Source: Thermoanaerobaculia bacterium
Lineage (GTDB): Bacteria; Acidobacteriota; Thermoanaerobaculia; Multivoradales; JAHZIX01
DNA length: 39,810 nt
Assembly (NCBI GenBank): GCA_027069135.1
Contig: JALXFE010000489.1
Coordinates: forward strand, 1 to 39,810
Direction of reading: 5' to 3'
Shown here: positions 4,594-27,818 of the stretch, piece after piece
Numbering within the stretch: position 1 is the stretch's first letter
How the letters are laid out: each line of letters starts with the position of its first letter
The notes under the pieces: generated by a model
Seen by the model: the letters and a program-made list of their open reading frames with translations, nothing else
Told to the model about the DNA's origin: nothing
The model's database searches: none
Position numbers and translations under genes: made by a program

Positions 4594-4609
4594 CTATCCG
4601 ATTGGATAG
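4594..4609. promoter_or_regulatory. Inverted repeat, candidate activator site upstream of P3
   Basis: CTATCCGATTGGATAG is a perfect 6-bp dyad with a 4-bp spacer. Its centre is 91.5 nt upstream of the P3 element, the same distance as the dyad of P1. A 13/16 match (CTATTCCATCGGATAG) occurs in the leader of the porin gene at 24327-24342. Confidence 0.45.
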
Positions 4610-4843: not shown

Positions 4844-7360
<2,517 letters not shown>

Positions 7361-7465
7361 CAGCTTTTCTCCTCGGTTCGGCAACCTTTGAGGGTCGTCA
7401 GAAGCGGTCTCTCCGCTGTCCTGGTTCTTCTTCGGGGCATCAGCGTACTCAACCCGCGCCCTTTT

Positions 7466-7756
7466 TCAGACTCCGGCGCCGCCCATGCCCGAAGATCCCA
7501 CGGCACGGCGGGCAAACAAGTTGTAAAGCGGCACCCATAGGAGCGCAACGTACCAGCCGTAGGCGTAGGATTCCACGAGCCCCAAGAAAAACGTTCCCGG
7601 GGTGAGCCAGGTGAATTCTGGCAGCAGGGCCTGCCAGGCCTTGTACATGGCAAAGCCCGGAAAAACGAGACCGAAACCGACACATAGGATGAAACTAATT
7701 GCGAGAAAAAGGCTCGCTGTGTGGCCTATGGTCGATAGGGAAATCTTGTTTGACAT
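7466..7756 (-). CDS. Small membrane protein, DUF5676-like
   Basis: This 96-residue protein has two predicted membrane segments, about residues 13-37 and 56-82. It ends with the family-like motif YVALLWVPLYNLFARR. Small two-helix DUF5676-type proteins are commonly found beside copper P-type ATPases, and that is the position here: between the ICMT-like gene and the Cu(+)-ATPase. The start at 7756 has GGAAGGAA upstream. The function is unknown; family assignment is from motif and neighbourhood. Confidence 0.65.
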   Translation of the reverse strand: MSNKISLSTIGHTASLFLAISFILCVGFGLVFPGFAMYKAWQALLPEFTWLTPGTFFLGLVESYAYGWYVALLWVPLYNLFARRAVGSSGMGGAGV

Positions 7757-7778
7757 GATTCATATTCCTTCCGATAGA

Positions 7779-8449
7779 TTACATCTCAACAGAACCCTCA
7801 TCCAGGATCGGTTTCGAACCGAAGCGCGGAATCCAGCGTGGCGTACCGCTGGCATAAAGAGCCCAAGCTTCACCGAGCTCTTCGGCAACTTCTCGCTCTT
7901 CACGCAGGGCCAGACGAACATAAACCGTTACCAGGACTGGGAACATCACGGCGGTTACGAGGGTAGGCCACTGAAGCAGAAAACCAGCCATGATCACGAT
8001 AAAGCCGATGGACTGAGGATGACGGACCGAGGCATACGGCCCGGCGGTCGCCAGAGTGCCGTCGCGCTGGGCTCGGTAGAGCACCCTCCATGCCGAGGCG
8101 AGTAGAACGAAGCCGGCCACGATCAGCACATTGCTCACGAGATGGATCGGATTCAGGTGAGGATTGCCTTCAAACCCTAGAAACTTGTACCAGATATGGC
8201 CCGCGTCATGAGTGAGAAAATCGACACCGGGATATTTCTTGGCGAGCCACCCGGAGAGTAAATAAATAGTCAGTGGAAAACCATACATCTCGGCAAAGAG
8301 CGCGATGATGAACGCGGAGAAGCTTCCGAAAGTCCTCCAGTCGCGCGGGGTCTTCGGCTTGAAAAAGCTGAAAGCGAAGATGATGAAGATGGCCGAGTTG
8401 ATGAATACGAGCAGCCACAGGCCATATGCCGGCATGTCCTGTCCATGGC

Positions 8450-8453
<4 letters not shown>
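7779..8453 (-). CDS. Isoprenylcysteine carboxyl methyltransferase (ICMT)-family membrane protein
   Basis: This 224-residue protein has four or five membrane segments (about 11-30, 44-66, 104-122, 150-178). The C-terminal half carries the SAM-binding signature of ICMT/phospholipid methyltransferase-like proteins: GPYASVRHPQ (138-147), the acidic REERE (184-188) and a Tyr...TPRW end (200-207). The usual chemistry is SAM-dependent methylation at the membrane interface, but bacterial members near metal-efflux genes have no known substrate. The start is GTG at 8453, overlapping the RND stop codon as GTGA, which implies translational coupling. A linker of about 45 residues with FLTHDAGH before the catalytic part is unexplained. 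Confidence 0.8.
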
Positions 8454-12316
<3,863 letters not shown>

Positions 12317-12351
12317 GTCGGCTCCTCAATTGGATCAGATACATCGAGCGT

Positions 12352-13764
12352 TCAATTCTTCTCGGCGCCGTGGGCGTGGCTTGGCGCCGGGCCACCGCCC
12401 TCGGGGTTCATCATGCTGGGCTTGGCCTGGATTTGGAGGGCGCTGTCGATCTTGAAGTTGCCGTTGACCACGACCAACTCGCCCTCGCGCAGGCCCTCTT
12501 CCACGACGTAATACCCCGCTGCCTTTGGCCCGAGGGTGACTTCGCGTCCTTCATAAACTCCTGGCTGGTCCGGAACCCGGACGTAGACCACAGCCCGCTT
12601 GCCGGTGAGCAGCGGTGCCGACGCCGGGATGACCAGCGGCGGCTCTTGCGACTGTGAGGCGTCGTCAACGTAGCCCAACGACTCGGCACTCACCAAGGGG
12701 TTGCCGCAGATCGGGCAGCGGCCGGGGTTTGAGCGCATGATCTCCGGATGCATGGGGCTGATCCACTTGCCTGCGAGGTCCGTGCTGGTCACTTTTCCTT
12801 CGGCGGTAAGTTGCGGCCGTACGACGGCACGCACGAACATTTCCGGCTTCAGCCGACCCTCACGATTCTCGACGTTTACCCGGACTTTGACGGTACGCGT
12901 CGCCGGATCGAGGACCGGGTCGATGAACGAGATCCTTCCCTCGAAGGGCTCACCGGGAAAGGCCTCGACCTCGATCCGGACTTCCTGGGCGTAGCGCAAC
13001 CAACCGAGATCCGATTCGTAGGCATCGAGTTGGACCCAGAGGTGGGACAGATCTGCGATGGTGTAGATCCGGCTGCCAGTATCGACGTACATGCCCTCCT
13101 GGGCGTTCTTATGGATCACGATGCCGCTCATCGGCGAGTAGATCGTCAGATGTTCTCGAGGTTTGCCACCGGCTTCGATCTCAGCGATCTGCTCGGGGGT
13201 CAGGCCCCAAAGGCGGAGCTTTTCGCGAGAGGTCTCGACCGTGGTCTTGACCCGTTCCCGCAGCACCGAGACATTGCTCCTCTCGAGGCTCTTCGCCGTC
13301 CGCAAGGCCTGGATCAGCTCTTCCTGGGCTGCCAGAAGCTCCGGGCTGTAGAGGTAGACCAGGTGATCACCCTTCTCGACCGGGGCGCCGGTGAAATCGA
13401 CGAAGAGCCGGTCCAGACGACCGGGGACGTAGGCGGTGATATAGGCGAGCCGGGTCTCGTCGTAGGTCACTTTTCCCACCATCCGGATCTCGACGCCGAC
13501 GAGCTTACGCTCGACGGGACGGGTCTGAATCTCCGCCAGCTTCTCGGCGGCCGGCGTCAGCCGAACGGCCCGCGGCCCGAGCCCCCCCGAAGCTTCGTGA
13601 GAGCCGTGGGCCCCGGCCCCTTGGGCCTCGCCGGACTGCTCGGCGCTCATCTCGACCGGGGTTTTCCCGCTGCCTGTCCCGGGCCCACCGCCACCGCGAA
13701 GGAGATAGCCGAGGACGAGGGCAGCTACGAACACGGCGGCGAAGGGAAATAGTTGCTTCTTCAT
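12352..13764 (-). CDS. CusB-type periplasmic adaptor with internal heavy-metal-binding module (system 1)
   Basis: This 470-residue protein links the inner-membrane RND pump to the TolC channel. An N-terminal membrane anchor (5-23) is followed by a Gly/Ser/His-rich linker, a barrel-sandwich half (about 100-140), an alpha-hairpin (140-195) and the second sandwich half (205-240, YSPMSGIVIHKNAQEGMYV). Beta-barrel and membrane-proximal parts follow. A heavy-metal-binding module, WISPMHPE...CPICGNPL (334-357), lies inside the C-terminal half rather than at the N-terminus, and its usual first Cys is Ser336. The ATG overlaps the stop of the TolC gene by 4 nt, and the RND gene starts 35 bp downstream. 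Copper delivery is inferred. Confidence 0.9.
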   Translation of the reverse strand: MKKQLFPFAAVFVAALVLGYLLRGGGGPGTGSGKTPVEMSAEQSGEAQGAGAHGSHEASGGLGPRAVRLTPAAEKLAEIQTRPVERKLVGVEIRMVGKVTYDETRLAYITAYVPGRLDRLFVDFTGAPVEKGDHLVYLYSPELLAAQEELIQALRTAKSLERSNVSVLRERVKTTVETSREKLRLWGLTPEQIAEIEAGGKPREHLTIYSPMSGIVIHKNAQEGMYVDTGSRIYTIADLSHLWVQLDAYESDLGWLRYAQEVRIEVEAFPGEPFEGRISFIDPVLDPATRTVKVRVNVENREGRLKPEMFVRAVVRPQLTAEGKVTSTDLAGKWISPMHPEIMRSNPGRCPICGNPLVSAESLGYVDDASQSQEPPLVIPASAPLLTGKRAVVYVRVPDQPGVYEGREVTLGPKAAGYYVVEEGLREGELVVVNGNFKIDSALQIQAKPSMMNPEGGGPAPSHAHGAEKN

Positions 13765-15134
13765 GGGCGAGTTCCTATCGTGGGTTTGGGATCTGCGATT
13801 CCCGGATCCGCCAAGGGTCGACCCGCGAGCATCTCTGCCTCGGCGAAGCGCTGCTCGCGATCGGCCACACCGCGCTCGAAGGAAAGCTGGAATTCCAGCA
13901 GCAGGCGCTGGGCGTCGATGACATTGAGGAAGTCTTCCTTGCCCGCTTCATAGCCCACCTGGGCGACCTCGAGGGACGCCTCCGCCAGGGGCACCAATGT
14001 GTCGCGAAAGAGGTCGATTTTCCGCTCAGCATCGTGGAATTTGAAGAGCACGAGCTTCAACCTTGCCTCGAGGGTGTTTTCGGCATCTTCTCGGAAGCCT
14101 CTTTGCGCCTCGCGACGCCTTCCGGCCTCGCGAACTCCGGCCCGATATTTCGATCGCCAGATCGGGACGCTGACCGAGACCTTCGCCACCAGGGGATCTC
14201 TTCCACTACCGGGCAGATTCGGGGCCAGGGCGCTACCGGTGTCGACCCAGTCGAGACCGACCTTGAAGTTGGGCCGGAAGTCCTTGCGAGCCAGCTCGAT
14301 GGCCTGCTCCTCCCGGGCGATCTCGAAATCGAGACGCCGTAGCTCCGGACTGTGCTCGGTCATCGCATCCAAGACCTCTTGGTCGTCGAGCTCGATCTCC
14401 CGAACCGGCAGGGCCTTCGGCCAAGGCACGGGGGCGTCAACGGGACGACCGAGGGCCCCGTTGAAACCTGCGATGATCGGTTCTCGGAGGGCCTCGAGGG
14501 TGCGTTGGCGATCATCGAGCTTACCCAACTCCACCTGTGCCTTGATCACCCCGGAAACCGGCGCGCCGACCATGAAGTTGGCCTGGGCAACACTCTCCAG
14601 GTGCTTCAAGAGAGAGATGTTGTCTTCGGTGATGGCGATTGCCCGAGCCAGGTAGTAGAGCTCGTAGTAGGCGTTCTTGACCTCGAAGAAGAGCCGGAGC
14701 TTGGCCGCCTGATACTGCTGCTCCGCTGCGTTGGCAGCCTCTGAGGCCACCGCGCTGCGCAGGCGCAGCTTGCTCAGCCAAGGAAAAACCTGAGCGATGC
14801 CGAGCCTCTGCTCTTGCGGCCCGACCCGGGTCTCCACCTCTTCGATGAAGTAGGCGTAGTTGAAGGTTGGATCCGGCAAGGTTCCCACCTGCTCAATCTT
14901 CTCGAGCGCTGCCTTAAAGCGATCGAAGGCCGCTTCGAGGCCCGGATTCGTGAGGGTGGCATAGAGGAGATAGTCTTCGAGCCGGGAGCTCTCGCCGAGG
15001 ACGGGGAGGTGGGGCTCGTCCGGGTCACCGGGAGGCACCGCCTCGAGGAGGCTCGGATGAAGCCATCCGATTCCGAAAAGGATGATCAGAAGCATGCCGA
15101 ACCGGACGGGGATCGAGTGAGAAATCTTGAACAT
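13761..15134 (-). CDS. CusC/TolC-type outer-membrane channel (system 1)
   Basis: This 457-residue protein has an N-terminal hydrophobic signal segment (about 11-31). Two TolC half-repeats follow, each built of long charged helices around beta segments (PDPTFNYAYF near 97-106; VAKVSVSVPIWRSKY near 313-327). It should trimerise in the outer membrane as the exit duct for the adjacent adaptor and RND pump. The order TolC, adaptor, RND with 4-nt and 35-bp junctions is a standard CusCBA/CzcCBA operon. No lipobox Cys is evident, so the mature N-terminus is probably not acylated. Confidence 0.9.
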   Translation of the reverse strand: MFKISHSIPVRFGMLLIILFGIGWLHPSLLEAVPPGDPDEPHLPVLGESSRLEDYLLYATLTNPGLEAAFDRFKAALEKIEQVGTLPDPTFNYAYFIEEVETRVGPQEQRLGIAQVFPWLSKLRLRSAVASEAANAAEQQYQAAKLRLFFEVKNAYYELYYLARAIAITEDNISLLKHLESVAQANFMVGAPVSGVIKAQVELGKLDDRQRTLEALREPIIAGFNGALGRPVDAPVPWPKALPVREIELDDQEVLDAMTEHSPELRRLDFEIAREEQAIELARKDFRPNFKVGLDWVDTGSALAPNLPGSGRDPLVAKVSVSVPIWRSKYRAGVREAGRRREAQRGFREDAENTLEARLKLVLFKFHDAERKIDLFRDTLVPLAEASLEVAQVGYEAGKEDFLNVIDAQRLLLEFQLSFERGVADREQRFAEAEMLAGRPLADPGIADPKPTIGTRP

Positions 15135-15171
15135 GGTGATGCCTTCTAGTCGAGCGTCGGCGCCGACGGGA

Positions 15172-15510
15172 TCAGAGCGCCTGGGGGCCTTCGCCTCCGT
15201 TACGGATCTTTATCGCCCGATCGACAGGGGTGACGAATACGATGCCGTCTCCGCCGTAGCCGGTCCGTGCCGAGTCGACGATGACTTGTAATAGCCCATC
15301 GACCTGCTCCGCACGGCAGACGATCTCCACCTTGCAGGCCTCCTCAGTCTTGGAGAGGTCGTTGGGGGCGAGACCTGAGAGATGCCGTTGGTAGCCATAG
15401 CCCACCCCGTGGACCTGAGACACCGTGACGCCGGGGGCTCCAGCCTTCCGGAGCCTCGGCAGGACGTCGTCGATCTTGCGGGTTCGTACAAAGGCTTTGA
15501 TGAGTTTCAT
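15172..15510 (-). CDS. PII-like signalling protein associated with metal efflux
   Basis: This 112-residue protein has the PII fold pattern. The start MKLIKAFVRTRKIDDVLPRLRKAG matches the first strand and helix. The C-terminal signature TGYGGDGIVFVTPVDRAIKIRNG matches the PII B/C-loop region that binds nucleotide. The T-loop region (about 36-55, GVGYGYQRHLSGLAPNDLS) lacks the usual uridylylated Tyr context, so GlnD-type control is not supported. A distinct PII group (described as PII-NG) occurs beside heavy-metal RND operons, and this gene lies 37 bp upstream of the TolC gene of CusCBA system 1. It may sense nucleotide or metal state for the efflux system; this is inference. ATG 15510 has AGGAG at good spacing. 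Confidence 0.85.
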   Translation of the reverse strand: MKLIKAFVRTRKIDDVLPRLRKAGAPGVTVSQVHGVGYGYQRHLSGLAPNDLSKTEEACKVEIVCRAEQVDGLLQVIVDSARTGYGGDGIVFVTPVDRAIKIRNGGEGPQAL

Positions 15511-15874: not shown

Positions 15875-15900
15875 TGCGGTTCTACACCCAGATTGTGGAA

Positions 15901-15915
15901 GCAAGGAACGCGCCA
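15901..15915 (-). promoter_or_regulatory. Sigma-54 promoter candidate P2 (PII-CusCBA1-CopA operon)
   Basis: The minus-strand sequence is TGGCGCGTTCCTTGC, one mismatch (A to G at the fifth position) from TGGCACG-N4-TTGC, followed by TT. Transcription would start near 15890, only about 16 nt before the ATG at 15874. An inverted repeat is centred 93.5 nt upstream (16001-16016). Confidence 0.65.
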
Positions 15916-15998: not shown

Positions 15999-16016
15999 CT
16001 CTTGCGCTCTTGCAAG
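15999..16016. promoter_or_regulatory. Inverted repeat, candidate activator site upstream of P2
   Basis: CTCTTGCGCTCTTGCAAG contains the dyad CTTGC-N6-GCAAG. It shares CTCTTGCG-N4-TGCRAG with the dyad upstream of P1 (24492-24509), at nearly the same distance from the promoter. Confidence 0.5.
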
Positions 16017-16077
16017 CCAGACCGGCCGGCGTACTCGCGGCGATGCACGCTCCAGATCTACCATCCCGGTGGTGTCT

Positions 16078-16143: not shown

Positions 16144-16617
16144 CTATTTCTTGGCCGAGGCGACGAAGAGGTCTGAGCGAACTCTGCTCCTGCGCCCCAG
16201 ATAGATGATCAGGGGCGGCAACAGCAACCATTGCAGGAGCGGTGAAACGCCCCACACTCCCAGTCGAGGCATAGCTGGGGCATATGCCCAGGCGCCCACG
16301 ACCTCGGTGTTGAGCCATTCGCTGAAGGCTGTGTAACCGAAACCGAGGGAGGTGAAGATGGCGATTGCCGGCAGAATCGACTTCCTCCGCCACCAATCGC
16401 GGCCGTGAAAGAGGATTGCCGTGATCCAGAAGGCACCTAATAGGATCAATAGGTCACCGCCCGTGCAGTGGAGGCGGGTCCACAAGACATGGCCCGCACC
16501 GAGCCGGTGGTCGGTGTAAAGGGGGGATTGGGCGAATTCCCAGAAGCCGTTGAGCAGCGCACCCCAACCGATCAGTTTCAGCTCCGTCCGCAATACCCGG
16601 AAACTCTTAATATTCAA
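16144..16617 (-). CDS. Uncharacterised small membrane protein with conserved His/Trp/Glu motifs
   Basis: This 157-residue protein has four likely membrane segments. Motifs include GALLNGFWEFAQSPLYT (about 18-34), LHCTGGDLLILLGAFW (about 48-63), GYTAFSEWLNT and WAYAPAMP (about 88-115), and SPLLQWLLLPPLI. I recognise this as a recurring family of small membrane proteins in metal-related gene islands but know no function. No good ATG exists. The TTG at 16617-16615 overlaps the TGA of the upstream gene (TTGA), suggesting coupled translation; this start is a proposal, and the longer frame to 16830 would run through the preceding gene. It is the last gene of the P1 electron-transfer operon. Confidence 0.6.
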   Translation of the reverse strand: MNIKSFRVLRTELKLIGWGALLNGFWEFAQSPLYTDHRLGAGHVLWTRLHCTGGDLLILLGAFWITAILFHGRDWWRRKSILPAIAIFTSLGFGYTAFSEWLNTEVVGAWAYAPAMPRLGVWGVSPLLQWLLLPPLIIYLGRRSRVRSDLFVASAKK

Positions 16618-17183
16618 GGTCTTGGCGTTCGGCCGTTGGAAATGGAAGGATATCGTCCGAGAATTCTTCGGACGAATTTTCTTGTTCGACGCTCCAACTT
16701 GCCGGGCTTGAGCACCTCGGTGGTCCAGCCACACCAGACCGGCTCGTCGGTGGCACCATCGCGCATGGTCAGAAAGAGGGTGCCCTGGGCGAAGGAGCCG
16801 CTGAGAAGCTCGAACTCCCCGGTGTCCCAATCGTATTCGTTGAAGGGCAAGGGCAGGGGGCGCGGCCTTTCGCCGACGACATAAGCCTCCAAGCTCGAAG
16901 CGTTGTACTGGATGATGAAGTCGGGCCGGGTGTCTCCCGTGCTCTTCACGTATCCCATCCTTGACAGCTGGAGCTCGATTTCTCGCCCCACAATAGCATC
17001 GATGCTCTCACCAGGAATCGCCGCCTCCCCGGGCGGCGGGCCGAAGCTCTCCAGACCAAAGGTTCTATAGCCCGATAGGTCGGCATCCCGGTGCAGGGTC
17101 GTCCAGACCTTGGCCTGCGCTGGAAATGGCAACAATGCGATCGAGGCGATGATCAAAACAAGTCCGGGATACCAGTTCTTCAT
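16614..17183 (-). CDS. DUF4136-type secreted protein
   Basis: This 189-residue protein has a signal peptide (1-25, cleavage after PAQA) and no lipobox Cys. It shows the DUF4136 pattern: a strand near DADLSGYRTFGLE (33-45), IVGREIELQLSRMGY (about 64-78), PDFIIQYNASS (86-96), then an acidic linker, GTLFLTMRDGATDEPVWCGW (about 133-152) and a basic helix. DUF4136 proteins are periplasmic or lipid-anchored with unknown function. AGGTGAGG precedes ATG 17183. The gene follows the hexahaem cytochrome by 70 bp and overlaps the next start. Confidence 0.75.
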   Translation of the reverse strand: MKNWYPGLVLIIASIALLPFPAQAKVWTTLHRDADLSGYRTFGLESFGPPPGEAAIPGESIDAIVGREIELQLSRMGYVKSTGDTRPDFIIQYNASSLEAYVVGERPRPLPLPFNEYDWDTGEFELLSGSFAQGTLFLTMRDGATDEPVWCGWTTEVLKPGKLERRTRKFVRRILGRYPSISNGRTPRP

Positions 17184-17253
17184 GATAGATCCTCACCTTC
17201 TGATAAGCGTTCGAAAATTCAACTCGCCACTCCATCCTTCCTTGTCCGGGACC

Positions 17254-18657
17254 CTACCAGTCGAGCTCATCTTCCGCCGGATACAGGCTGTGTAGATAGC
17301 TGACCAGATCGTCGAGCTGGCCCTCCGTCAGACGATCACCGAAGCCCGGCATAGCGAGCGGCGGTTCCGGCCCGTCCGGCTCGAGCTTGCCGACCTTCGG
17401 CACGCCAATACGGATACGGTCTTTCAGTTCCGCACGAGTGTAGCCTTCCTTGACATAGATCAGCGACGGCACCTGTTCCCCCGACTCGGAATTTCTGTTG
17501 GGAACACCTCCCGTCGCATCGACCCCGTGACAGCCGCGGCAGCCGTAACGCTTGAAGAGAATCTCCCCTCGGCGCTCCGGAGATGGCTCGTCGAGAACCG
17601 TGATCGTCCGCTCGTGGATTCGCCGAAGGAAGAGGATCAGCGAATGAGCCTCGGCTTCGGTGAAATCGAAATCCGGCATCACCGTGCCGGGGGTCACGGC
17701 CCGTGGCTCACGGAAGTGGGCGACGAGCCAACCTTCCGTTCGCCGGGTCACCACATGATCGAGGGGTGGACCGACCTCCCCTCCCGCACCGGAGATCTGA
17801 TGGCAGCCGATGCATCCCTTGGCTCGGAACAGGCGCCGACCCGTCTCCGCGCTCTCGAGGATGCGCCGGGAGGCGTGGTAGCCCGAGACCTCCGGCCGAC
17901 GACGGCTCAACATCAGGAGGGTCAGCGCCTTCGCGTCGTCTGGTGAGAATCCGTACCGGGGCATCGCTGAATCGGGGACGACCTGAGCGGGATCGAGAAA
18001 GTGCTGCATCAGCCATTCCGGGCTCCGCGGTCTGCCGTTGATCTGCCGATCGAGATCGGGCGCCAACCCACCACCCCAGCCGTCGAGCCTGTGGCAGCCT
18101 CGGCACCCAGCCTCCTCGAAGAGCTCAGCTCCGCGCGCCAGTCGGGGAGCCGCAGGATTGTCGGACGGATCATGACAGCCGCCGCAACTCGCCTCGACGA
18201 AGTCCAGAGGCAACATCGGACGATCCCAGAACGGCACGTCGCCGTGGGCCTCTCTCGCGCTGGTGGCACGGCCTTGGCCGGCATGGCAGACCGTACATCC
18301 GAAGCGCTCGAACGGATGAACGTCATGGTCCGGATGGTAAGCGAAGGGTTGTCCGGCGCCGGCGTAGGTGGCGTCGTCCACCCCCAGATGGCAGGAGATG
18401 CAGCGGTCGACGGTATCGAGCTCCGGGACCACGATCTGCGCCAGCTCGATCGGTCGCTCCCGGGCCTGACGCCGCTCTTCCACGGTCGTGCCTCGGGCGA
18501 TCTCGAGGTCGCGGAAGCTTTCCTGGTAGGAGCGCCATTCTCGCCTTTCCTCCCTGAGGAAACCGGCGACCACGAGGACCATCAAAGCTAAGGCCAGTAG
18601 CGCGAAGGTAAGGGTCGGCAGGCGCGGTTCGGTGGGAGGTGATTTCAAAGACGCCAT
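17254..18657 (-). CDS. Hexahaem c-type cytochrome, bc-complex partner
   Basis: This 467-residue protein is anchored by one N-terminal membrane helix (about 14-33), with the remainder periplasmic. Six CXXCH sites are visible: CISCH 86-90, CTVCH 121-125, CGGCH 158-162, CRGCH 185-189, CIGCH 282-286 and CRGCH 373-377. The first three lie close together like a multihaem block. The last three each open a class-I cytochrome c domain with a Met-containing loop (SAMPRYGF, GTVMPDFDF, LAMPGFGD). It starts 3 bp after the cytochrome b stop, so it is very likely the cytochrome c1 equivalent accepting electrons from the Rieske/cytochrome b unit. The number of haems greatly exceeds a normal c1. Confidence 0.9.
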   Translation of the reverse strand: MASLKSPPTEPRLPTLTFALLALALMVLVVAGFLREERREWRSYQESFRDLEIARGTTVEERRQARERPIELAQIVVPELDTVDRCISCHLGVDDATYAGAGQPFAYHPDHDVHPFERFGCTVCHAGQGRATSAREAHGDVPFWDRPMLPLDFVEASCGGCHDPSDNPAAPRLARGAELFEEAGCRGCHRLDGWGGGLAPDLDRQINGRPRSPEWLMQHFLDPAQVVPDSAMPRYGFSPDDAKALTLLMLSRRRPEVSGYHASRRILESAETGRRLFRAKGCIGCHQISGAGGEVGPPLDHVVTRRTEGWLVAHFREPRAVTPGTVMPDFDFTEAEAHSLILFLRRIHERTITVLDEPSPERRGEILFKRYGCRGCHGVDATGGVPNRNSESGEQVPSLIYVKEGYTRAELKDRIRIGVPKVGKLEPDGPEPPLAMPGFGDRLTEGQLDDLVSYLHSLYPAEDELDW

Positions 18658-18660
18658 GGC

Positions 18661-19902
18661 TCAGCCCCCCGCCGCCCAGGGCCAGACCCAATCCCAATTC
18701 GGACCCCGGAAGAAGGTGGCGATAACGGTCAGAATCGCCAGCGCCAGCAGCACCAGGAGAAAGGTCCCGTTGGCCAGCCAGCGCTCCCGGGCGAACCAAC
18801 GCCCGATACCGACCCTCCGCCGGTCGAGGTAGGGAAGCAGGATGAGGGCAAGGACGAGGGCTCCGGGAATGATCACCCCACCCAGAAAGGCCGAATGAGC
18901 CACAAGCTCCTGCAAGGCAAGGAAATACCACGGTGCTTTGGCGGGATTCGGCGGGTGAATCGGATTCGCAAGCTCCTCGAGGGGCGCGTCGAAGAAGATC
19001 GCGAGGAGCAAGACGACGGAAAAGGTGCCGACGAAGAGCAGGACCTCACGGATCAGGAGGTGGGGCCAGGCGAAGACTTCCTTACCGGGGTCGCGGCCCA
19101 CATAGGGCGTCGAGCTCTCGGTCAAGGCCATCAGACCGTAGCTTTTCTGTGGCGGCGGAGCCTCTCCTTCCTCGACCGTGGGCTGATCTTCATCGGGATG
19201 GGCCAGCCCACCGTCTTTGCGGATTCGGTAAAGATGAACGGCGATCATGAGAATCGCCGCCGCCGGCAGTACGACGACGTGCAGAACATAGAAGCGCAAT
19301 AGCGACGCCTGACCCACGATGTTGCCACCGAGGAGCGAAAAGCGGGTGAGCTCACCTACCCCGGGTGCGTAGGCAGCAATGCTGGTGCCGACCGTGATCG
19401 CCCAAAAAGCCAGCTGGTCCCATGGCAAGAGATACCCCGTGAAGCTCAGAAAAAGAGTCAGCAGAAAAAGACCTACACCCACCCCCCAATTGAACTGGCG
19501 GGGTGCCTTGTAGGCGCCCATCAGGAAGACCCGCGCCATGTGCAGCACTATCGCGACCACCATCAGATGGGCTGCCCAGCGGTGGCAGTTGCGCAATAGC
19601 ACCCCCGCCGTAACCACAAAGGAGAGATCTCTAACGCTGTCGTAGGCCCGCTCCACCGAGGGAACGTAGTGGAACATCAGAAGAACACCGCTGACCACCA
19701 GGATGATGAACAGGTAAAGAGTGATCAGCCCCAGGCCGAAAGTACGGGTCGGCCGCAAGCTGTCGCGCCGGACTTTGGCCGGATGCAGGTGGAGCAGGAA
19801 GCTCGACACCATCGCCTGAGCTCGCCCGAGGTTGGTCTTTGGAATGCCGACCCGGAACACTGACCGGTAGACCGTCTGCCAGAATCGACGGAAGGGGTTC
19901 AT
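18661..19902 (-). CDS. Cytochrome b (b6-type N-terminal domain fused to subunit-IV-like part)
   Basis: This 413-residue protein is the quinol-oxidising membrane core. Haem ligands are His107/His121 and His208/His223, spaced 14 and 15 as in b6-type proteins rather than 14/14 as in mitochondrial bc1. Further b6-like features are [20 protein letters not shown] and YRIRKDGG. The Cys that binds the extra haem in b6f is absent (region RTFGLG). The C-terminal part resembles subunit IV with three more helices. The Qo-site PEWY motif reads APWY (323-326), so its Glu is replaced by Pro324. The ATG overlaps the Rieske stop by 4 nt. Quinol is probably the donor, perhaps menaquinol; this is inferred. Confidence 0.92.
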
Positions 19903-20462
19903 GCTTGCTCACCTCCGCCGCGATCCTCCAGGCCTTTCCCCCCCGACCCAACCACCAGGAATTCTTCCGGGGAAACGGAGCGGCCACGGTCGATGACCAG
20001 ACGTCCGTCACGGGCCTGGGCGATACCAAAGCTATCGAGGGCACGCGGTGCCGGCCCGGAAAGGACGTTTCCATCCTCATCGAAGAGGCTGCCGTGGCAC
20101 GGACAACGATAGCCTGAGTCGGCACGGTTGACCGTACATCCCAGATGGGTGCAGATCCCCGACATGGCTCTAAAGCCGTCGCCTTTGCGGATCAGAAAAG
20201 TGCGGATCTCGTCCAGAAAAGCGACAGAGCCATCGCTATAGTCCTCGGGTTTGCCGGCGCGGAATCGCTGGTTGGGTTCGTCGAGGAGGTTTGGCAGAAG
20301 TCCCCGCATCCCGGCGAGGGTGGCGGCGGAGAGCGAACCCAGAGTACCGATCCAGCCGAAGACCAAGAGTACGAAATCACGGCGGCGCCATTTTCTCCCG
20401 GTCTTGAGGCTGCGGCCCTCGGGTGAGGGCTCTTGGCCGACGACCGGTAAGGATTTGCTCAT
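19899..20462 (-). CDS. Rieske [2Fe-2S] protein of the bc-type complex
   Basis: This 187-residue protein has a twin-arginine-like motif (RRRDFVLL, 26-33) before a single membrane helix (31-52) and a C-terminal Rieske domain. The cluster ligands are in CTHLGC (Cys104, His106, Cys109) and CPCHGS (Cys120, Cys122, His123), the disulfide-containing type found in bc1/b6f complexes. ATG 20462 has GAGGAG upstream and overlaps the preceding stop as ATGA; the longer frame to 20540 runs into the neighbouring gene. It should move electrons from quinol at cytochrome b to the hexahaem cytochrome. Confidence 0.93.
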
Positions 20463-22291
20463 AGCACGATCTCCTCTACTCGTTCCATGGTCACTGCTCC
20501 GACCGGGCAGCGCTCGGCACATAGCCCGCAGCGGATGCACCGTGTCTCGTCCTTCAGGATGGCGGCGAAACGACCCGCTACGGGAAGGGTGCCGTAGCGA
20601 GCTTTAAGCACACTTTCGAGGGCACGATGCTGCGGCAGCCCGGCGCTATCCACAAGGCTCAGGCAATACTCCGGACAGACATCCACACAGCCCCCACAAG
20701 CGACGCAGGCGTCGCCGTCAAAAACCGGACTGATATGGCATTCGAGGCAACGTAAGGCCTGCCGACGGGCTGCGGCCTCCGGGTATCCCTGTTCGACTTC
20801 TGTAACGCCGATGCGGCGATCGACGCCGATCTTGGGCGGCTCCCGGCGGGAGGGAGCCAGCAGGCCTTCGGCGACGCGGCGACGCGGTAGGATCGTCGCG
20901 CGGTAGCGACGAGAGGCTTGTGTTTCCACCTCGCCGAGGTAACTAGCGATCGATCGCGCGGCGCGGCGACCTTCGGCGACGGCATGGATTACGTTGCGCG
21001 GGCCGAAGGCGAGGTCGCCGCCGGCGAAGACTCCCGGTCGGGTCGTTTCGAGAGTCTTGGAGTCGCATACCAGGGTACCGCGGGGCGTCGCCTCGAGCCC
21101 GTCCTGGGGACGGATCCACGACAGCTCCGACGACTGCCCGATGGCGAGAATCACGGTGTCCGCCGGGACCGTCTCCTCGGATCCTTCCCGAAAGACGGGG
21201 TTGAAGCGACCCGTCTTATCAAATACCGATTCGACTCGGGTCAGTTCGACCCCGGCCACCCTACCGTCCTGCCCCAGGAAACGGCGGGGCCCCCAACGGG
21301 GGTGGATACGGATTTTCTCCTCGGCGGCGTCTTCGATCTCGGGTCTAGAGGCGGGCATCTCCTGCAGATCTTCCAGGCAGAAGACATCGACCTCTCTCAC
21401 TCCGGAACGCAGCGCCTGACGGGCCGCGTCCATCGCTACCTGCATGTGCTCACCTCCACCGCGGGCCGGCGGGCCGTCTGTCTGGCGCAGCGCCGAGCGC
21501 GCAGCGTCGAGGGCGACATTGCCACCGCCGATCACGACGACACGATGGCCGAGTTCCACCCGATAGCCGAGATGGTGGTTCAGTAGGTAGTCGACGGCAG
21601 ACAGCACGCCGTCGAGCCCGGCACCGTCGATCTCTAAGGAGCGGCTCCGGTGGGCGCCGATGCCGAGGAAGACCGCTTCGAAGCCCTGTCCGAAAAGATC
21701 TTCGAGGGCGAAGCTCTGACCCAGTCTCTGCCCGGTTCTGAGCTCGACGCCGAGGCCGAGAATCGCTCCGATCTCCGCTTCGATGATCCGTCTCGGCAGG
21801 CGGTACTCCGGGATGCCCAAAGTCAGCATGCCGCCAGCCTTGGGAGACGCTTCGAATACCGTGACCCGGTAACCTCCGAGGGCCAGATCGTGGGCACAAG
21901 AGAGCCCCGCCGGGCCGGCACCGACGACCGCAACGCGCCGCCCAGAGCCATCCCCCGGCTGCCGCTCAGGCTCCGCTGAATGGCCTGCTCCCGACTCGGC
22001 ACCATATCTCTCGCAGACGAAGCGCTTCAGTGCCCGGATCGATATCGCTTCATCGAGGTCCGCACGCCGGCATTTCATCTCGCAAGGGGCGCTGCAAATC
22101 CGACCGCAGATCGAAGCGAAGGGATTGGGCGCCCGGGCGACACGGTAGGCGTCTTCATAGCGGCCTTCGGCGATCGCCCTTACGTAGGCGCCGGCGTCGG
22201 TGTGGACCGGACATCCCTCCCGGCAGAGGACCTGACGACTGAAGTAGCCAACGTCCGGAATGCTGACCGAAGAAACGTCGGGGGAACTCAT
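20459..22291 (-). CDS. GltD-like NAD(P)-dependent flavoprotein with N- and C-terminal iron-sulfur centres
   Basis: This 610-residue protein combines three parts. Residues 15-95 form a GltD-type N-terminal Cys-rich domain (CREGCP, then CGRICSAPCEMKC). Residues 118-460 form the two-dinucleotide-binding oxidoreductase (FAD motif VVGAGPAGLS near 122-131; NAD(P) motif VVVIGGGNVALDAA; GVFAGGDLAFG near the end). The C-terminus carries two [4Fe-4S] ferredoxin motifs (CVACGGCVDVCP and CIRCGLCAERCP). Such proteins move electrons between NAD(P)H and iron-sulfur or other carriers. Co-transcription with Rieske and cytochrome b (4-nt overlap) suggests it feeds or drains this chain on the cytoplasmic side. 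The ribosome binding site (GGATC) is weak. Confidence 0.88.
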   Translation of the reverse strand: MSSPDVSSVSIPDVGYFSRQVLCREGCPVHTDAGAYVRAIAEGRYEDAYRVARAPNPFASICGRICSAPCEMKCRRADLDEAISIRALKRFVCERYGAESGAGHSAEPERQPGDGSGRRVAVVGAGPAGLSCAHDLALGGYRVTVFEASPKAGGMLTLGIPEYRLPRRIIEAEIGAILGLGVELRTGQRLGQSFALEDLFGQGFEAVFLGIGAHRSRSLEIDGAGLDGVLSAVDYLLNHHLGYRVELGHRVVVIGGGNVALDAARSALRQTDGPPARGGGEHMQVAMDAARQALRSGVREVDVFCLEDLQEMPASRPEIEDAAEEKIRIHPRWGPRRFLGQDGRVAGVELTRVESVFDKTGRFNPVFREGSEETVPADTVILAIGQSSELSWIRPQDGLEATPRGTLVCDSKTLETTRPGVFAGGDLAFGPRNVIHAVAEGRRAARSIASYLGEVETQASRRYRATILPRRRVAEGLLAPSRREPPKIGVDRRIGVTEVEQGYPEAAARRQALRCLECHISPVFDGDACVACGGCVDVCPEYCLSLVDSAGLPQHRALESVLKARYGTLPVAGRFAAILKDETRCIRCGLCAERCPVGAVTMERVEEIVL

Positions 22292-22297
22292 CGGATC

Positions 22298-22708
22298 CTA
22301 GTCCCCTTTCTGTTCGGCCTTCTTCTTTGCGATCAGGTCCTTCTTGCGAATCGATGAGTCGTAGGCCAGGAATTGGTAGATCTTCTTACCTTCTTTGGGC
22401 GAGATTCCGCTGCCGGGCTTGCGCATCATGCGCTTGACGTAGCGCGACCATTCGTCCGGCAGTGCATAGTCGGAGTTGATCGGCCGGGCCAGGGTGTGGC
22501 ATTTCGAGCAGCGGGCCGCAAAGACCTTGTAGCTCTCCTTCATTTCCGCTGGATAGGACGAGATATCGATCGTCTTCGGGCCGCTGTCGAAGCCCTCCAG
22601 ACGTTCCTCACTCGAAGGTGCTTGAGCGAGGAGACCACCGCTCACAGCTAGGAGGAAGGCCATGGCTACGGACATGGCCACGGGCACGAGAATCTGTTGT
22701 TTCGTCAT
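22298..22708 (-). CDS. Monohaem cytochrome c, c-551-like
   Basis: This 136-residue secreted protein has a signal peptide (1-29) and one haem site, CSKCH (67-71). The pattern YKVFAARCSKCHTLARPIN, then WSRYVKRMMRKPGSGISPKEGKKIYQFL, resembles small cytochromes of the P840 c-551 type, with a Met in the RMMRK stretch as likely sixth ligand. A Lys-rich tail (KKKAEQKGD) could dock on acidic partners. The ATG overlaps the previous stop by 4 nt, with AGGAG upstream. It is likely a soluble electron carrier for the bc-type unit. Confidence 0.85.
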   Translation of the reverse strand: MTKQQILVPVAMSVAMAFLLAVSGGLLAQAPSSEERLEGFDSGPKTIDISSYPAEMKESYKVFAARCSKCHTLARPINSDYALPDEWSRYVKRMMRKPGSGISPKEGKKIYQFLAYDSSIRKKDLIAKKKAEQKGD

Positions 22709-23136
22709 TCGTTATTCTCCTTCAGGTAGCGGAGCACGGCTCGTGCCTGCTCGCCGGTCAAGTTGGCCCGCACCCGCATGTGGGTGACGATCAGGTCCCA
22801 CTCGGCGTCGGAGTGCTCTTTGGGGTACCGCTCCGAATGGCAGGAACCGCAATTCCAGGCGAAGACCTTGGCTCCGTCGAGAACCGTCTTCGAACCTACC
22901 GTCTTCGAACCTACCGTCTTCGGACCTCCAGTGTCCGGTAAAGTCTGCTCCGAAGGGTCGGCCTCACTGTCTCCAGGAGTAACTGGCTCTTCTGCAACAA
23001 CTGGCTCTTCGGCAGCGGCTTGGTCTTCGGCAGCCGCCGTCTCTTCGGCGAAGGTCAGGGGTGTGATCACCGCGAGCATCGTCGAAGTGCTCCCCGCCAC
23101 CACGGCCGTCGTCATCCACTTTTTCCAATTTTGCAC
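22705..23136 (-). CDS. Monohaem cytochrome c with Glu/Ala-rich and repeat linker
   Basis: This 143-residue secreted protein has a GTG start at 23136 (GAGGAG upstream) and a signal peptide ending near 30. A low-complexity acidic linker (31-85) includes AEEPV repeats and a VGSKT repeat encoded by a 15-bp tandem repeat. It is followed by a short haem domain with CGSCH (96-100) and a Met in THMRVRANL. The sequence AWNCGSCHSERYPKEHSDAEWDLI is typical of small diheme-peroxidase-like or c-type carriers. It is likely a tethered periplasmic carrier in the same operon. Confidence 0.82.
   Translation of the reverse strand: MQNWKKWMTTAVVAGSTSTMLAVITPLTFAEETAAAEDQAAAEEPVVAEEPVTPGDSEADPSEQTLPDTGGPKTVGSKTVGSKTVLDGAKVFAWNCGSCHSERYPKEHSDAEWDLIVTHMRVRANLTGEQARAVLRYLKENNE
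22883..22927. repeat. 15-bp tandem repeat, three units
   Basis: ACCGTCTTCGAACCT occurs three times end to end, the last with one change. It encodes a VGSKT-type peptide repeat in the linker of the cytochrome at 22705-23136. Length variation between strains is likely. Confidence 0.85.
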
Positions 23137-23180
23137 GGGTTTCTCCTCTATCGACTCTCGTCAATCTCGTTCCTACTTTC

Positions 23181-24296
23181 CTAGAACCCCACCGCGAACA
23201 TCGCGATCACGGCGTTTTCCGCATCTCTCTCGGATTCCTCGGTCCTCTCCCAGGCAGCTCGCAGAACTGTAGAACCGGTAAAGTAATAGTTGATCCCGAA
23301 AGACGTTTGGTCGATGCTGTTTCCGGCCCAAGCCAGATTGGCGAAGCGTCCTACCGCTTCTACTTTGTTGAGGGCATAGACCGGAATGATGCTGAGGCGG
23401 ACAGATGCCTGCAGGTACCAGGAATCCGCTTCTTGGGCGGGAAGGGTGCTGCCATCGCCGGCCAGTCGATCCGTCTCGGTGTCCAGCCATTCAGCGCGGA
23501 GATCGAAGAGATCGTGGTGGTAGGCAAAATCGAAGCCCGTCATCGAAGAATCGAGCTCGCCGGCGTCGTCATAGCTGCCTTCAAAGGACGAGATTCCGAT
23601 CTCAAAGCCGCGCGCCGGCACCACCGAGATCCGCCCGCCGGCGGCGAGGTCGCCGGTATTGGAGGAGGCGCCGCCAAAGGAGAGGAGCTCCTCTCCTTCA
23701 TCGTCGGCACCGGCTTCGCTGGCCTCGCTCTCCGTGCCTTCTTCTCCGTGCGCTTGAGGGATCCGAAGACCGTTGCTAAGGAAAACGGAATAGTTGAAGC
23801 GCCGATTGCCTTCGCCGAGCGGCACTCCGCCACGCAGCTGCAGGCCCGTCTGGTTGAAAGGGATCAGGCTGCGATCGTGCTGGTAGGGCAGGGGAAACGT
23901 CGGGAGCTTGTTGATCCAGGCGGGATGAATCCGTTCGATGAATGTGCCGAAGGGTGTCAGGAATCTGCCCATCACCACGGTGAGCCGATCATTGACCAAC
24001 CAATCCAGCTGGGCGTACTCGAGACCGGTTTCCAACTCCTCGTCTTCGAACTCGAACTCGACCTCGGCCTCGAAGAGGAATTCGTCGCTGATCCGGTAGA
24101 GGAAAATCGGCACAAAGGCAGAGTTGAAGCTCGCTTCTGTCGAGTCCGAGTCCTCGAAGGTCGTGAAGCCGTACCCGGTCAGGAGAAAGCGATTCTCGGG
24201 GGCCGGTACGGCGTTGTCCTGGGCCCAGGCGGGGGCTCCGAGCACCACAAGTAAAGCCGCCGATAGCACGACGGCGGCTGGCTTGAACACAAACAT
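23181..24296 (-). CDS. Outer-membrane beta-barrel porin-like protein
   Basis: This 371-residue protein has a signal peptide (1-25, APAWA-QD) and a barrel pattern of alternating hydrophobic residues. Its final residue is Phe (AVIAMFAVGF), the usual recognition signal for outer-membrane assembly. Segments such as AQLDWLVNDRLTVVMGRFLTPFGTF resemble phosphate-selective porin O/P-like and DcaP-like proteins. An acidic loop (about 180-200, EEGTESEASEAGADDEGEE) could bind cations. It is the first gene after the perfect sigma-54 promoter P1 and precedes the cytochromes, so a role in substrate or metal entry to the electron-transfer chain is plausible. ATG 24296 has AGGAG. Confidence 0.78.
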   Translation of the reverse strand: MFVFKPAAVVLSAALLVVLGAPAWAQDNAVPAPENRFLLTGYGFTTFEDSDSTEASFNSAFVPIFLYRISDEFLFEAEVEFEFEDEELETGLEYAQLDWLVNDRLTVVMGRFLTPFGTFIERIHPAWINKLPTFPLPYQHDRSLIPFNQTGLQLRGGVPLGEGNRRFNYSVFLSNGLRIPQAHGEEGTESEASEAGADDEGEELLSFGGASSNTGDLAAGGRISVVPARGFEIGISSFEGSYDDAGELDSSMTGFDFAYHHDLFDLRAEWLDTETDRLAGDGSTLPAQEADSWYLQASVRLSIIPVYALNKVEAVGRFANLAWAGNSIDQTSFGINYYFTGSTVLRAAWERTEESERDAENAVIAMFAVGF

Positions 24297-24326: not shown

Positions 24327-24342
24327 CTATTCCATCGGATAG
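24327..24342. promoter_or_regulatory. CTATCC-type imperfect dyad in porin leader
   Basis: CTATTCCATCGGATAG matches the P3-upstream palindrome (4594-4609) at 13 of 16 positions. It lies between the inferred P1 transcription start and the porin ATG. Confidence 0.3.
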
Positions 24343-24395
24343 TGAGCCTCGACAGCCCGTAGATGGATGTGAGCTGGCTCCGATCAGAGCGAAGA

Positions 24396-24410
24396 GCAAG
24401 GCCCGTGCCA
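24396..24410 (-). promoter_or_regulatory. Sigma-54 promoter P1 (porin-cytochrome-bc operon), exact consensus
   Basis: The minus-strand sequence TGGCACGGGCCTTGC is an exact match to TGGCACG-N4-TTGC and is followed by T. Transcription should begin near 24384, giving a leader of about 88 nt before the porin ATG at 24296. It lies in the gap right after the gene for an NtrC-type sigma-54 activator. A dyad is centred 91.5 nt upstream (24494-24509). Confidence 0.85.
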
Positions 24411-24491: not shown

Positions 24492-24509
24492 CTCTTGCGA
24501 ATCTGCGAG
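24492..24509. promoter_or_regulatory. Inverted repeat, candidate activator site upstream of P1
   Basis: CTCTTGCGAATCTGCGAG contains CTTGC-N6-GCGAG, an imperfect dyad. It shares CTCTTGCG-N4-TGCRAG with the site upstream of P2. Its centre lies 91.5 nt from the P1 element, typical for an enhancer-binding protein. Confidence 0.5.
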
Positions 24510-24566
24510 TCGATGCGGGAGCAAATCTTTCAGCGATGCAAGTCCCAAGGTGATCGGCAGAGACCG

Positions 24567-24585
24567 TGAGGCCGTCACGGCCTCA
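24567..24585 (-). terminator. Hairpin at the response-regulator stop codon
   Basis: TGAGGCCG-TCA-CGGCCTCA is a perfect 8-bp stem with a 3-nt loop, GC-rich, and it includes the TGA stop of the regulator gene. No T-run follows, so it may be a weak terminator or an mRNA 3'-end stabiliser separating the regulator operon from P1. Confidence 0.45.
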
Positions 24586-25935
24586 GTCTGCTGTGGAGTC
24601 GAGTCGCTGCAATCGGCGGTAGAGGGTCGATGCGTTGATACCCAAGAGGCGCGCCGCTTCCTCTCGGTTGCCGCCGGTGGACTCAAGCACCCGGCGGATG
24701 TGCTCCCCCTCGTAGGCCCGGACGGCGCAGCGGAGATCCTGCGAAAGCTCACCGCTTCCTCCGGAGCCGGTGAGCTCTTGGGGAAGATCCTCGAGGGCCA
24801 GACAAGTCCCGTCGGTGAGAAGCACCGCCCTTTCGAGCGCATTTTCAAGCTCACGGACATTTCCCGGCCATTCGGCGCTCATCAGCGCTCGCAGCGCCGG
24901 GTCGTCAACGCCGAGCACGCGCTTCTTGAGGCGTGCATTGATCCGCGCGAGGAGATGTTCGATCAAGCCGGGGATATCCTCGCGGTGCTCGCGCAGTGGC
25001 GGCAAAGGGATCTCCAGAACCCGGATGCGGTAATAGAGATCCTGGCGAAAACGCTCGGCTCGAACCTCCAGGTGCAGATTTCGGTGCGTTGCGGTAATCA
25101 GCCGCAACCGGATGCGGATAGGTCGAGTGCCCCCTACCGGCATGACCTCGCTCTGCTCCAGAGCGCGCAGCAGTTTAGGTTGCAACTCAAGGGGGAGCTC
25201 GCCGATCTCGTCGAGGAAAAGTGTCCCGCCGCTGGCCAGCTCGAACATGCCAGGTTTGTCGCGGATCGCACCGCTGAACGCGCCCTTTCGGTAGCCGAAG
25301 AGTTCACTCTCCATCAGCTCTCGGGGTAGAGCCGCGCAGTTGACCGCCACGAAGGGGGCGTCCGGTCCCTTGCCGAGTTCATGAATCGCTCGTGCGACGA
25401 CTTCTTTGCCGGTGCCGGTCTCGCCGGTCACCAACACCGTGGTATCAGTTTTCGCGACACGGTGGATCAATCTCTTGACCTCTCCCATCGCCGGACCATC
25501 GCCGACCAGCCGTGTCCCTTCATCCGCCCGGGATACGTTCCGACGTAGGAAACGCAGCTCACGCATCAGAAGGCGCCGTTCCAGGCAACGCCGGACCCGG
25601 ACCAAGAGCTCCTCATGCTGGAGGGGCTTGAGAAGATAGTCTGCCGCTCCCTTGCGGAAGGCTTGGACGGCGCTATCCAACGAGCCATACGCCGTGACCA
25701 GAAAAACAGGAACTTCCGGGTGCTCGACCGCGAAGTGATGGATCACTTCCACACCGTCGATGCCCGGCATCGACAGGTCACACAGCACTAGATCTGGTTC
25801 CTCCTTATCGGCGGCCTTGAGGCCCTCCTCGCCGGTCGCAGCGGTTCGGCAGTGGTATCCCTCTTCCCGCAACAGGCTTGCCAAGTCTTCGCGAAAGAGA
25901 TCTTCGTCATCGACGATCAGAATTTGAGCCGTCAT
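24583..25935 (-). CDS. NtrC-family sigma-54-dependent response regulator
   Basis: This 450-residue protein has a receiver domain (1-120) with phospho-acceptor Asp53 and acidic pocket Asp9/Asp10-Glu11. The AAA+ domain (about 143-370) has Walker A GETGTGKE (171-178) and Walker [14 protein letters not shown] (236-248), and the Arg-finger region follows. A Fis-type helix-turn-helix ends the protein ([20 protein letters not shown]). The sigma-54-contacting loop reads GAFSGA (218-223) instead of GAFTGA, a conservative Ser for Thr change. It shares 1 nt with the kinase stop codon (TGATG), so the two are cotranslated partners. The gene lies just upstream of promoter P1 and probably activates it, and P2/P3 by motif similarity. 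Confidence 0.95.
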
Positions 25936-27818
25936 CAGAGGACCCTCGTTGTTTCTTCGCCATCGGAGAATCCGACGCTTTCCCAGGGTAGAGAAATCGT
26001 GAAGCAGGTCCCCTCACCGGGCTCACTGCGTACATGAATGTCCCCGCCATGGGCTTCGATAAGGCTTTTCGAAAGGGAGAGTCCCAAGCCGACCCCCTGC
26101 TTCTTGGTAGTGAAAAAGGGCTCGAAGATTCGCTTCCTGACCTCCCGCGTGAGGCCCAGTCCCGAGTCTCTGACCTTGAGTTTGATGCCGCTGTCGGTGG
26201 AAGTCGAGGCAATGTGGACCGTTCCCCCGCTCGGCATGGATTCCACCGCGTTGAGAAGCAAGTTGACGAGGACCTGGACAAGTTGATCGCGTACCCCCCG
26301 GATCTCTGTTGAAATCCCGGACAAGTCTCGATCGAACGTTACATCTCTCGCTCTACGGTCGAGGCGAATCAGGTTCACCGCTTCCTTGACCATGTCGTCC
26401 ACCTTGCAGACTTCCCACTCCGCCGAACGGTTGCGGGAGAAGAGCGAGACGTTTCTCACTGTGCGCCCAATTCGCTCGACATGATTCTTGAGCAGGGCGA
26501 GACTCTCGTCGAGGAATGCAGGATCGCGTTGGCGCTCGAGGCGTTTCAGACGTGTGGTAAGAGAAGCTAGAGGGTTACCGATCTCGTGGGCCAGTCCCGC
26601 TGCGAGCTGCCCCAGGAGTGAGAGCTTGCCGGCATGGACTGTTTCGGCCTCGAGGGCCTTGCGCCGAGTGATGTCTTCGACCAACTCGACGACCTGGAAA
26701 ACTCGGCCGTCCTCGTCTTTCACCGGTTCTGCAATATGTCGTAGGTATCGCTCACTACCATCATCTCCGACCACGCGACGCTCTGCCTCGGTAGGTCGGC
26801 CATCCTCCAACACTTGACTCGCAACACATTGTGGGCACCCGCCCTCAGTTCGAAACAGAGGACAGGCGTTGCCACGAACCTCCGGGCGCCAGCTCAACCA
26901 TCGCGCCGCTCGCGGGCTGAACCACTGGACCCTCAGCCCTGGTTCGATGACTAGCATCCCCATTCCGGCCGCGTGGACTGTTCCTTCGAGCCGCTCGTGT
27001 TCGAGGATCGCCTCCCGGGCCACCTTCGCCACTTCCTCCTGGCTGTCCCGCAATCGACCGCTTAGGAGGGATGTCAAATAGGACGCGACGAGCACCAGCA
27101 CGAGGAGCGAGAGACTCTTCCCAGCGATGAAGTTCGGGTCATAGGAAGCGTGGCTCAGACCCGCCGTAGGGACCTGCCCGTGGGCCAACTCGTTTCCGGG
27201 TCCCCCCTCGAGATGAGGAAAGAGCCCGAATGAGACATGCGGCAGCAAATGAAAAGCCTCGCCGATCACCAGCAGGCCGAACAGCAGGCAAGCTATCGCT
27301 GCGACGCCGAAGGCCGCTCGCCGGGGAAGAAGGATAGCCGCGACGATAACCGGGAAGACGTAGGCGAGATAGAGCGGGTTCTCGATCCCGCCGGAGGCGT
27401 TCAAGAGCCCCGTCAGTACTAGCAAATCGACCACGATCTGGATGCGTACCTGGCGCTCGGGATCAGACCGGCGCTCGATCAGCCGGCTAAAGATAGCGTT
27501 CGAAACCACGAGGACCAAGATCCACCCGAGGAGCCAAGGAAGGCTGGAGTAGGGAAGGAGCCCTGCGATCGGGATGGCGATTAGCACCAGGGTCACAATG
27601 GCGAAAGCGGCGGTCCAGCGCAGCTGTACCAGCCATCTCGCGTGTTGCAGAAGCCGAGATTCACGGTTCGGAAGCTGCATCGTGCCGGAGGGGCCCCGAG
27701 GCGGCGGAAAAGCCGGCCCCCGGAGCTTCCCCAGGCGCCACATTAAGAGGAAGACCAGAACGAGGGACAGGTAGATGCAACTGAGAAGTCGCAGCTGATG
27801 AAAGATCTCGGGGTTCAT
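25935..27818 (-). CDS. Membrane sensor histidine kinase with RegB-like membrane region and PAS domain
   Basis: This 627-residue protein has several N-terminal membrane helices (about 8-27, 68-110, 128-188, 236-253), with GGIENPL at 143-149. It resembles the GGxxNPF quinone-binding heptad of RegB/PrrB redox kinases. A PAS-like domain follows (275-385) with Cys319, Cys328 and Cys331 (CPLF...GGCPQC). The dimerisation/phosphotransfer helix has AHEIGNPLASL with His411. The ATPase domain follows, with N box, DSGLGL and GVGLGLSLSK motifs. The partner is the NtrC-type regulator whose start overlaps its stop. A redox (quinone) or thiol/metal signal is inferred from motifs only. AAGGA precedes ATG 27818. 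Confidence 0.93.
   Translation of the reverse strand: MNPEIFHQLRLLSCIYLSLVLVFLLMWRLGKLRGPAFPPPRGPSGTMQLPNRESRLLQHARWLVQLRWTAAFAIVTLVLIAIPIAGLLPYSSLPWLLGWILVLVVSNAIFSRLIERRSDPERQVRIQIVVDLLVLTGLLNASGGIENPLYLAYVFPVIVAAILLPRRAAFGVAAIACLLFGLLVIGEAFHLLPHVSFGLFPHLEGGPGNELAHGQVPTAGLSHASYDPNFIAGKSLSLLVLVLVASYLTSLLSGRLRDSQEEVAKVAREAILEHERLEGTVHAAGMGMLVIEPGLRVQWFSPRAARWLSWRPEVRGNACPLFRTEGGCPQCVASQVLEDGRPTEAERRVVGDDGSERYLRHIAEPVKDEDGRVFQVVELVEDITRRKALEAETVHAGKLSLLGQLAAGLAHEIGNPLASLTTRLKRLERQRDPAFLDESLALLKNHVERIGRTVRNVSLFSRNRSAEWEVCKVDDMVKEAVNLIRLDRRARDVTFDRDLSGISTEIRGVRDQLVQVLVNLLLNAVESMPSGGTVHIASTSTDSGIKLKVRDSGLGLTREVRKRIFEPFFTTKKQGVGLGLSLSKSLIEAHGGDIHVRSEPGEGTCFTISLPWESVGFSDGEETTRVL

Follow-up and report, generated by a model that had tools for sequence, protein, structure and literature searches.

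In a window of 39,810 nucleotides (the whole stretch of DNA that was analysed) from a Thermoanaerobaculia bacterium, three sigma-54 promoters (P1, P2 and P3) are each preceded by an inverted repeat at nearly the same distance, which raises the question of whether these dyads are enhancer sites and whether a single activator, encoded at 24583-25935, acts on all of them. An earlier note on this DNA had claimed both, arguing that equal spacing is what an enhancer-binding activator would require and is hard to explain by chance. Direct reading of the sequence bore out the positions of the dyads, their distances of 91.5 (P1), 93.5 (P2) and 91.5 nt (P3) from the sigma-54 elements and the fact that the P3 dyad differs from those at P1 and P2 (Table 1).

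The three operons run leftward, and the dyads and sigma-54 elements ahead of them all lie on the minus strand. Judged by GG and GC ten bases apart in a TGGCAC-N5-TTGCW-like sequence, the -24/-12 elements were exact at P1 and P3 and had one mismatch at P2, and such an element is kept downstream of the dyads in relatives, as for sigma-54 promoters. At each promoter we also found a second, distal copy of the dyad, which had been missing from the earlier description: P1 and P2 are arranged as (CTTGCA-N4-TGCAAG)x2 with copies 33 nt apart, and P3 as (CTATC-N6-GATAG)x2 with copies 22 nt apart (P3-type consensus CTATCCGATCGGATAG). The P1 dyad is imperfect, with one broken pair, and the extra CT that had been included in its span (24492-24509) is also present at P2. 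Upstream activating sequences (UAS) of enhancer-binding proteins are dyad-symmetric, as a rule come at least in pairs, and precede a -24/-12 element in helical phase with it; tandem pairs were present at all three promoters, with the P1/P2 type placed at 49.5-103.5 nt with a period of 10.5-11, and the phase was not significant for the P3 type. A perfect 9-bp inverted repeat (the GAGGCCGTCACGGCCTC region, at about 24566-24586) was also seen at the 3' end of the activator gene and is possibly a terminator-like hairpin.

Table 1. Dyads, promoter elements and genes at P1, P2 and P3
Feature	Sequence	Position (strand)	Remarks	Basis
P1 proximal dyad	CTTGCGAATCTGCGAG (minus strand CTCGCAGATTCGCAAG)	24494..24509 (-)	centre 24501.5	sequence reading, pattern match, member of model R1
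P1 distal dyad	minus strand CTTGCATCGCTGAAAG	24527..24542 (-)	33 nt upstream of P1 proximal	pattern match, R1
P1 sigma-54 -24/-12 element	TGGCACGGGCCTTGCT	24395..24410 (-)		sequence reading, pattern
P2 proximal dyad	CTTGCGCTCTTGCAAG (minus strand CTTGCAAGAGCGCAAG)	16001..16016 (-)	centre 16008.5	sequence reading, pattern, R1
P2 distal dyad	minus strand CGTGCATCGCCGCGAG	16034..16049 (-)	33 nt upstream of P2 proximal	pattern match, R1
P2 sigma-54 -24/-12 element	TGGCGCGTTCCTTGCT	15900..15915 (-)		sequence reading, pattern
P3 proximal dyad	CTATCCGATTGGATAG (minus strand CTATCCAATCGGATAG)	4594..4609 (-)	centre 4601.5; attributed to the C181 activator
P3 distal dyad	minus strand CTATCGGAACAGATAA	4616..4631 (-)	22 nt upstream of P3 proximal
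P3 sigma-54 -24/-12 element	TGGCATGGCCTTTGCT	4495..4510 (-)		sequence reading, pattern
Sigma-54 activator		24583..25935 (-)	Response regulator / AAA+ / HTH_8, GAFSGA loop	Pfam PF00072, PF00158, PF02954; orthologue co-occurrence
PilS-like/PAS histidine kinase		25935..27818 (-)	inferred partner of the activator	Pfam; adjacency kept in relatives
P1 operon		16614..24296 (-)	outer-membrane porin-like protein, two small c-type cytochrome-like proteins, GltD-like oxidoreductase, Rieske, cytochrome b, cytochrome c protein, DUF4136	Pfam; extent inferred from gene order
First gene after P2		15554..15874 (-)	106 aa, no Pfam match	conserved
Rest of P2 operon		4844..15510 (-)	P-II-like protein, OEP/HlyD/CusA-type RND, ICMT-like, CopA-type ATPase	Pfam and NCBIfam; order kept in relatives
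First gene after P3		3654..4355 (-)	233 aa, no Pfam family

Among 148 other genomes of the class, we found 13 orthologues of the activator (58-86% identity, with the best paralogues at 48% or less). Tandem pairs recur at the loci L024, L025, L026, L027, L029 and L030, with 91.5-94.5 nt between the sigma-54 element and the centre of the proximal dyad and 32-33 nt between the copies, and in an alignment of P1 and P2 with these relatives the dyad columns held 1.59 bits of information compared with 0.62 in the remainder. More distant orthologue loci carry the same dyads at 103.5 (L185), 83.5 (L186), 82.5 (L189) and 49.5 nt (L190), which are roughly whole-turn displacements; the helical phase of the P1/P2-type spacings gave R = 0.83-0.87 at a period of 10.5-11, in a test to which the conserved 93-nt cluster contributes most. 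When relatives were searched for CTTGC-N6-GCRAG at this spacing, as the earlier note had proposed, a dyad with at most one mismatch followed by a sigma-54 element 45-110 nt on was present at 10 of the 12 orthologue loci with enough sequence, compared with 0-1.5% per locus in Markov shuffles; such counts across relatives are not independent, because the sites share descent. L028 (orthologue at 61%) had no dyad nearby, and at L187 there was only one dyad, next to a sigma-54 element of poor quality. Several further tandem pairs were found in G003 (L180). At L026 (genome G002), an extra perfect CTTGCA-N4-TGCAAG dyad lies upstream of the tandem pair (2919-2934) and is a possible third site.

Taken singly, CTTGC-N6-GCRAG was not enriched in the whole genome (45 strand matches, compared with 40 for the reversed-pattern control); on these sequence comparisons, what is above chance is the tandem form, the position relative to sigma-54 elements and the conservation. 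The tandem model R1, which like its P3-type counterpart R2 was trained on most of the sites that it recovers, gave E < 0.01 in the bacterium's own 7.17 Mb genome only at P1 (6e-7) and P2 (1e-8). Across 149 genomes of the class, a strict dyad-N70..100-sigma-54 pattern matched five times, always within the 14 orthologue-bearing genomes (hypergeometric 3.5e-6), and matches to its reversed control were scattered over other genomes. Perfect dyads were likewise present in 8/14 orthologue-bearing genomes, compared with 10/135 others (Fisher 1.8e-5). Outside the training set, the R1 match at G029:C23:55599 precedes OEP/HlyD/RND genes orthologous to those of P2, and on G042:C151 the element is flanked by divergent sigma-54 elements and precedes the operon orthologous to the other efflux operon of the window. 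The R1 matches G042:C82:5966 and G008:C112:2502 were not counted, as no convincing sigma-54 element was found at the expected distance.

At P3, the evidence leads to another activator. Perfect 6-bp dyads arise by chance at p = 0.016 within about 2 nt of the claimed distance and at p = 0.38 anywhere in 140 nt, so that the P3 dyad alone is weak evidence. Its tandem pattern (up to 2 mismatches) was found at only 4 places in 148 genomes and nowhere with the reversed control, and a sigma-54-like element lies downstream of all four, at 91.5, 70.5, 105.5 and 105.5 nt. In G001 and G028, the P3-type element is directly 3' of a gene for an FHA-GAF or GAF-containing sigma-54 activator. The bacterium's own orthologue of this gene (G000:C181:23761-25689, 63%) is followed, 43 nt past its 3' end, by CTATCTCTTCGGATAG and CTATCCGATCCGTTAG and then by TGGCACAGGCCTTGCT, a sigma-54 promoter, and gene and tandem element are arranged likewise at the orthologues of the C181 activator in G007, G015 and G022. 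Since R2 has just two matches in the own genome, at P3 and at the C181 site, and since the element adjoins FHA-GAF activator genes, P3 is best read as a predicted enhancer of the FHA-GAF-AAA+-HTH_8 activator encoded on C181. R2 also matched a near-perfect tandem on which it was not trained (G024:C162, 8e-8), where the nearest sigma-54 element is about 226 nt off. P3-type spacing ranges from 65 to 106 nt in relatives, and the equality of the P3 and P1 distances is therefore largely coincidence, which cautions that equal spacing need not mean a common activator. Loci of the P1/P2 type mostly keep to 91.5-94.5 nt. The single-activator reading holds for P1 and P2 and fails for P3. The gene after P3 was found in 1 of 78 related genomes (G029, 52%), where neither a sigma-54 element nor a CTATC dyad was seen upstream of it. 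In the presumed P1 leader, CTATTCCATCGGATAG at 24327-24342 is one mismatch from a P3-type dyad; with no tandem partner and an R2 E of 0.45, it was rejected as a P3-type site and is probably due to chance.

It is extremely unlikely that the dyads are chance inverted repeats whose equal spacing was selected by eye. Some 6-bp dyad does occur in 38% of 140-nt stretches and the single motif lacks genome-wide enrichment, but such an origin is contradicted by the conservation of dyads around a diverged spacer, and it leaves aside the tandem form, their repeated position at orthologous sigma-54 promoters and the unique genome-wide matches. The P1/P2 dyads might instead serve some activator other than the neighbouring one, considering that the activator protein has 42 or more matches in the own genome, hence over 40 candidates, and that adjacency is not proof. 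We consider this very unlikely, as in most genomes with the orthologue the element lies 3' of this very gene, and as it is depleted where the orthologue is absent; in this lineage, UAS frequently lie immediately 3' of the gene for their activator.

It is also very unlikely that the activator 24583-25935 serves all three promoters, with P3 as a variant of the P1/P2 site that has diverged. All three sites are indeed 5-N6-5 dyads, have CT..C/G..AG ends and are nearly equal in spacing, but the P3 type has its own consensus and its own 22-nt period and sits beside genes for FHA-GAF activators, both in relatives and on C181, and R1 has no match at P3 just as R2 has none at the P1 or P2 UAS. The reading that we favour, with a probability of about 0.88, is that the dyads are the promoter-proximal halves of tandem UAS for NtrC-like sigma-54 activators, with P1 and P2 served by 24583-25935 and P3 by the C181 FHA-GAF protein. 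Of the original proposal, enhancer sites of a sigma-54 activator are strongly supported at all three promoters, and control by 24583-25935 is retained for P1 and P2 and given up for P3.

Dyads, tandem form, promoter elements, conservation, co-occurrence and gene content are observations made on the DNA itself, and from them we infer protein binding, phosphorylation, looping and an inducer. The activator has the receiver, AAA+ sigma-54 and Fis-type HTH domains of a Group I (response regulator) bacterial enhancer-binding protein, with a loop that reads GAFSGA for GAFTGA, and P1 and P2 probably answer to this regulator encoded next door. The kinase 25935-27818 would phosphorylate it, and two dimers would then occupy the pair of 16-bp palindromes (CTTGCA-N4-TGCAAG), which lie some three turns of the helix from each other, assemble the AAA+ ring and, by looping of the DNA, reach the sigma-54 polymerase from sites near -118 and -151, counted from the start. 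In this way the porin/cytochrome b/c/Rieske operon would be switched on from P1 and the 106-aa/P-II/CusCBA-like/CopA operon from P2, so that this two-component regulator most likely induces both a metal efflux and a cytochrome b/c operon. Copper or a related metal, a natural guess from gene content, would most likely be the inducing condition. P3 would work in the same mode, with the C181 activator on tandem CTATC-N6-GATAG.

Seven loci in related genomes encode relatives of the 106-aa protein (29-73% identity), and in several relatives its gene comes first after the UAS. G079 has a similar cytochrome/Rieske set after the activator gene, and upstream of the kinase the window holds a copper-resistance-type multicopper oxidase and a second CusA/CzcA operon. 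A P-II-like signalling protein (15172-15510, minus strand) lies within the heavy-metal efflux operon, a place that is kept in relatives. The CusA/CzcA-family RND pump (8450-12316, minus strand) has 1288 aa, about 240 aa more than the TIGR00914 model, and is matched in two stretches, suggesting that it carries an internal insertion.

In architecture and predicted mechanism, P1, P2 and P3 are classical NtrC-type enhancers. At glnA, the NtrC enhancers are tandem palindromes about 100-150 nt upstream of -24/-12, on the same helix face. The NtrC half-site is of the TGCACC type, whereas that of the P1/P2 elements is TTGCA, and the activator scored 414.6 bits with the NCBIfam equivalog for NtrC, compared with a cut-off of 558.6. 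ZraSR of enterobacteria is a sigma-54 two-component metal regulator; ZraR has a similar domain order (structure 1ojl matched over 140-444) but differs in motif and regulon, and since the activator reached only 374.4 of the 760 bits set for the ZraR equivalog, it is not ZraR. By domains and operon type, the nearest functional parallel that we found is CorSR of Myxococcus xanthus (PMC3707914), a two-component system with a Response_reg/Sigma54_activat/HTH_8 regulator and a copper-tolerance operon with predicted sigma-54 promoters. CorS has a periplasmic sensor with HAMP, whereas the kinase 25935-27818 is PilS-like with PAS, and the main text of that paper mentions no tandem sites, repeats or binding site. 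According to the main text on the Desulfovibrio vulgaris sigma-54 regulome (PMC4641369), activators there control one to four operons each, their sites are found near the activator gene and GAFSGA is a tolerated functional variant of the GAFTGA loop. Small regulons, GAFSGA and sites near the activator gene are thus common to both cases, but organism and motifs differ, and neither copper nor TTGCA/TGCAA appears in that main text. A literature search returned no report of the P1/P2-type or P3-type motif.

Genomes of this lineage carry dozens of sigma-54 activators, and this analysis, starting from raw sequence alone, provides candidate DNA sites and target operons for two unstudied ones. Tentatively, and at somewhat less than even odds, the P1/P2 system may be a novel class-wide sigma-54 metal regulon, in which a PilS-like kinase and its activator, acting through paired CTTGCA-N4-TGCAAG, would co-induce CusCBA/CopA efflux and a cytochrome b/c-Rieske electron-transfer operon. 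If true, this regulon would link metal detoxification to a dedicated respiratory chain across the class.
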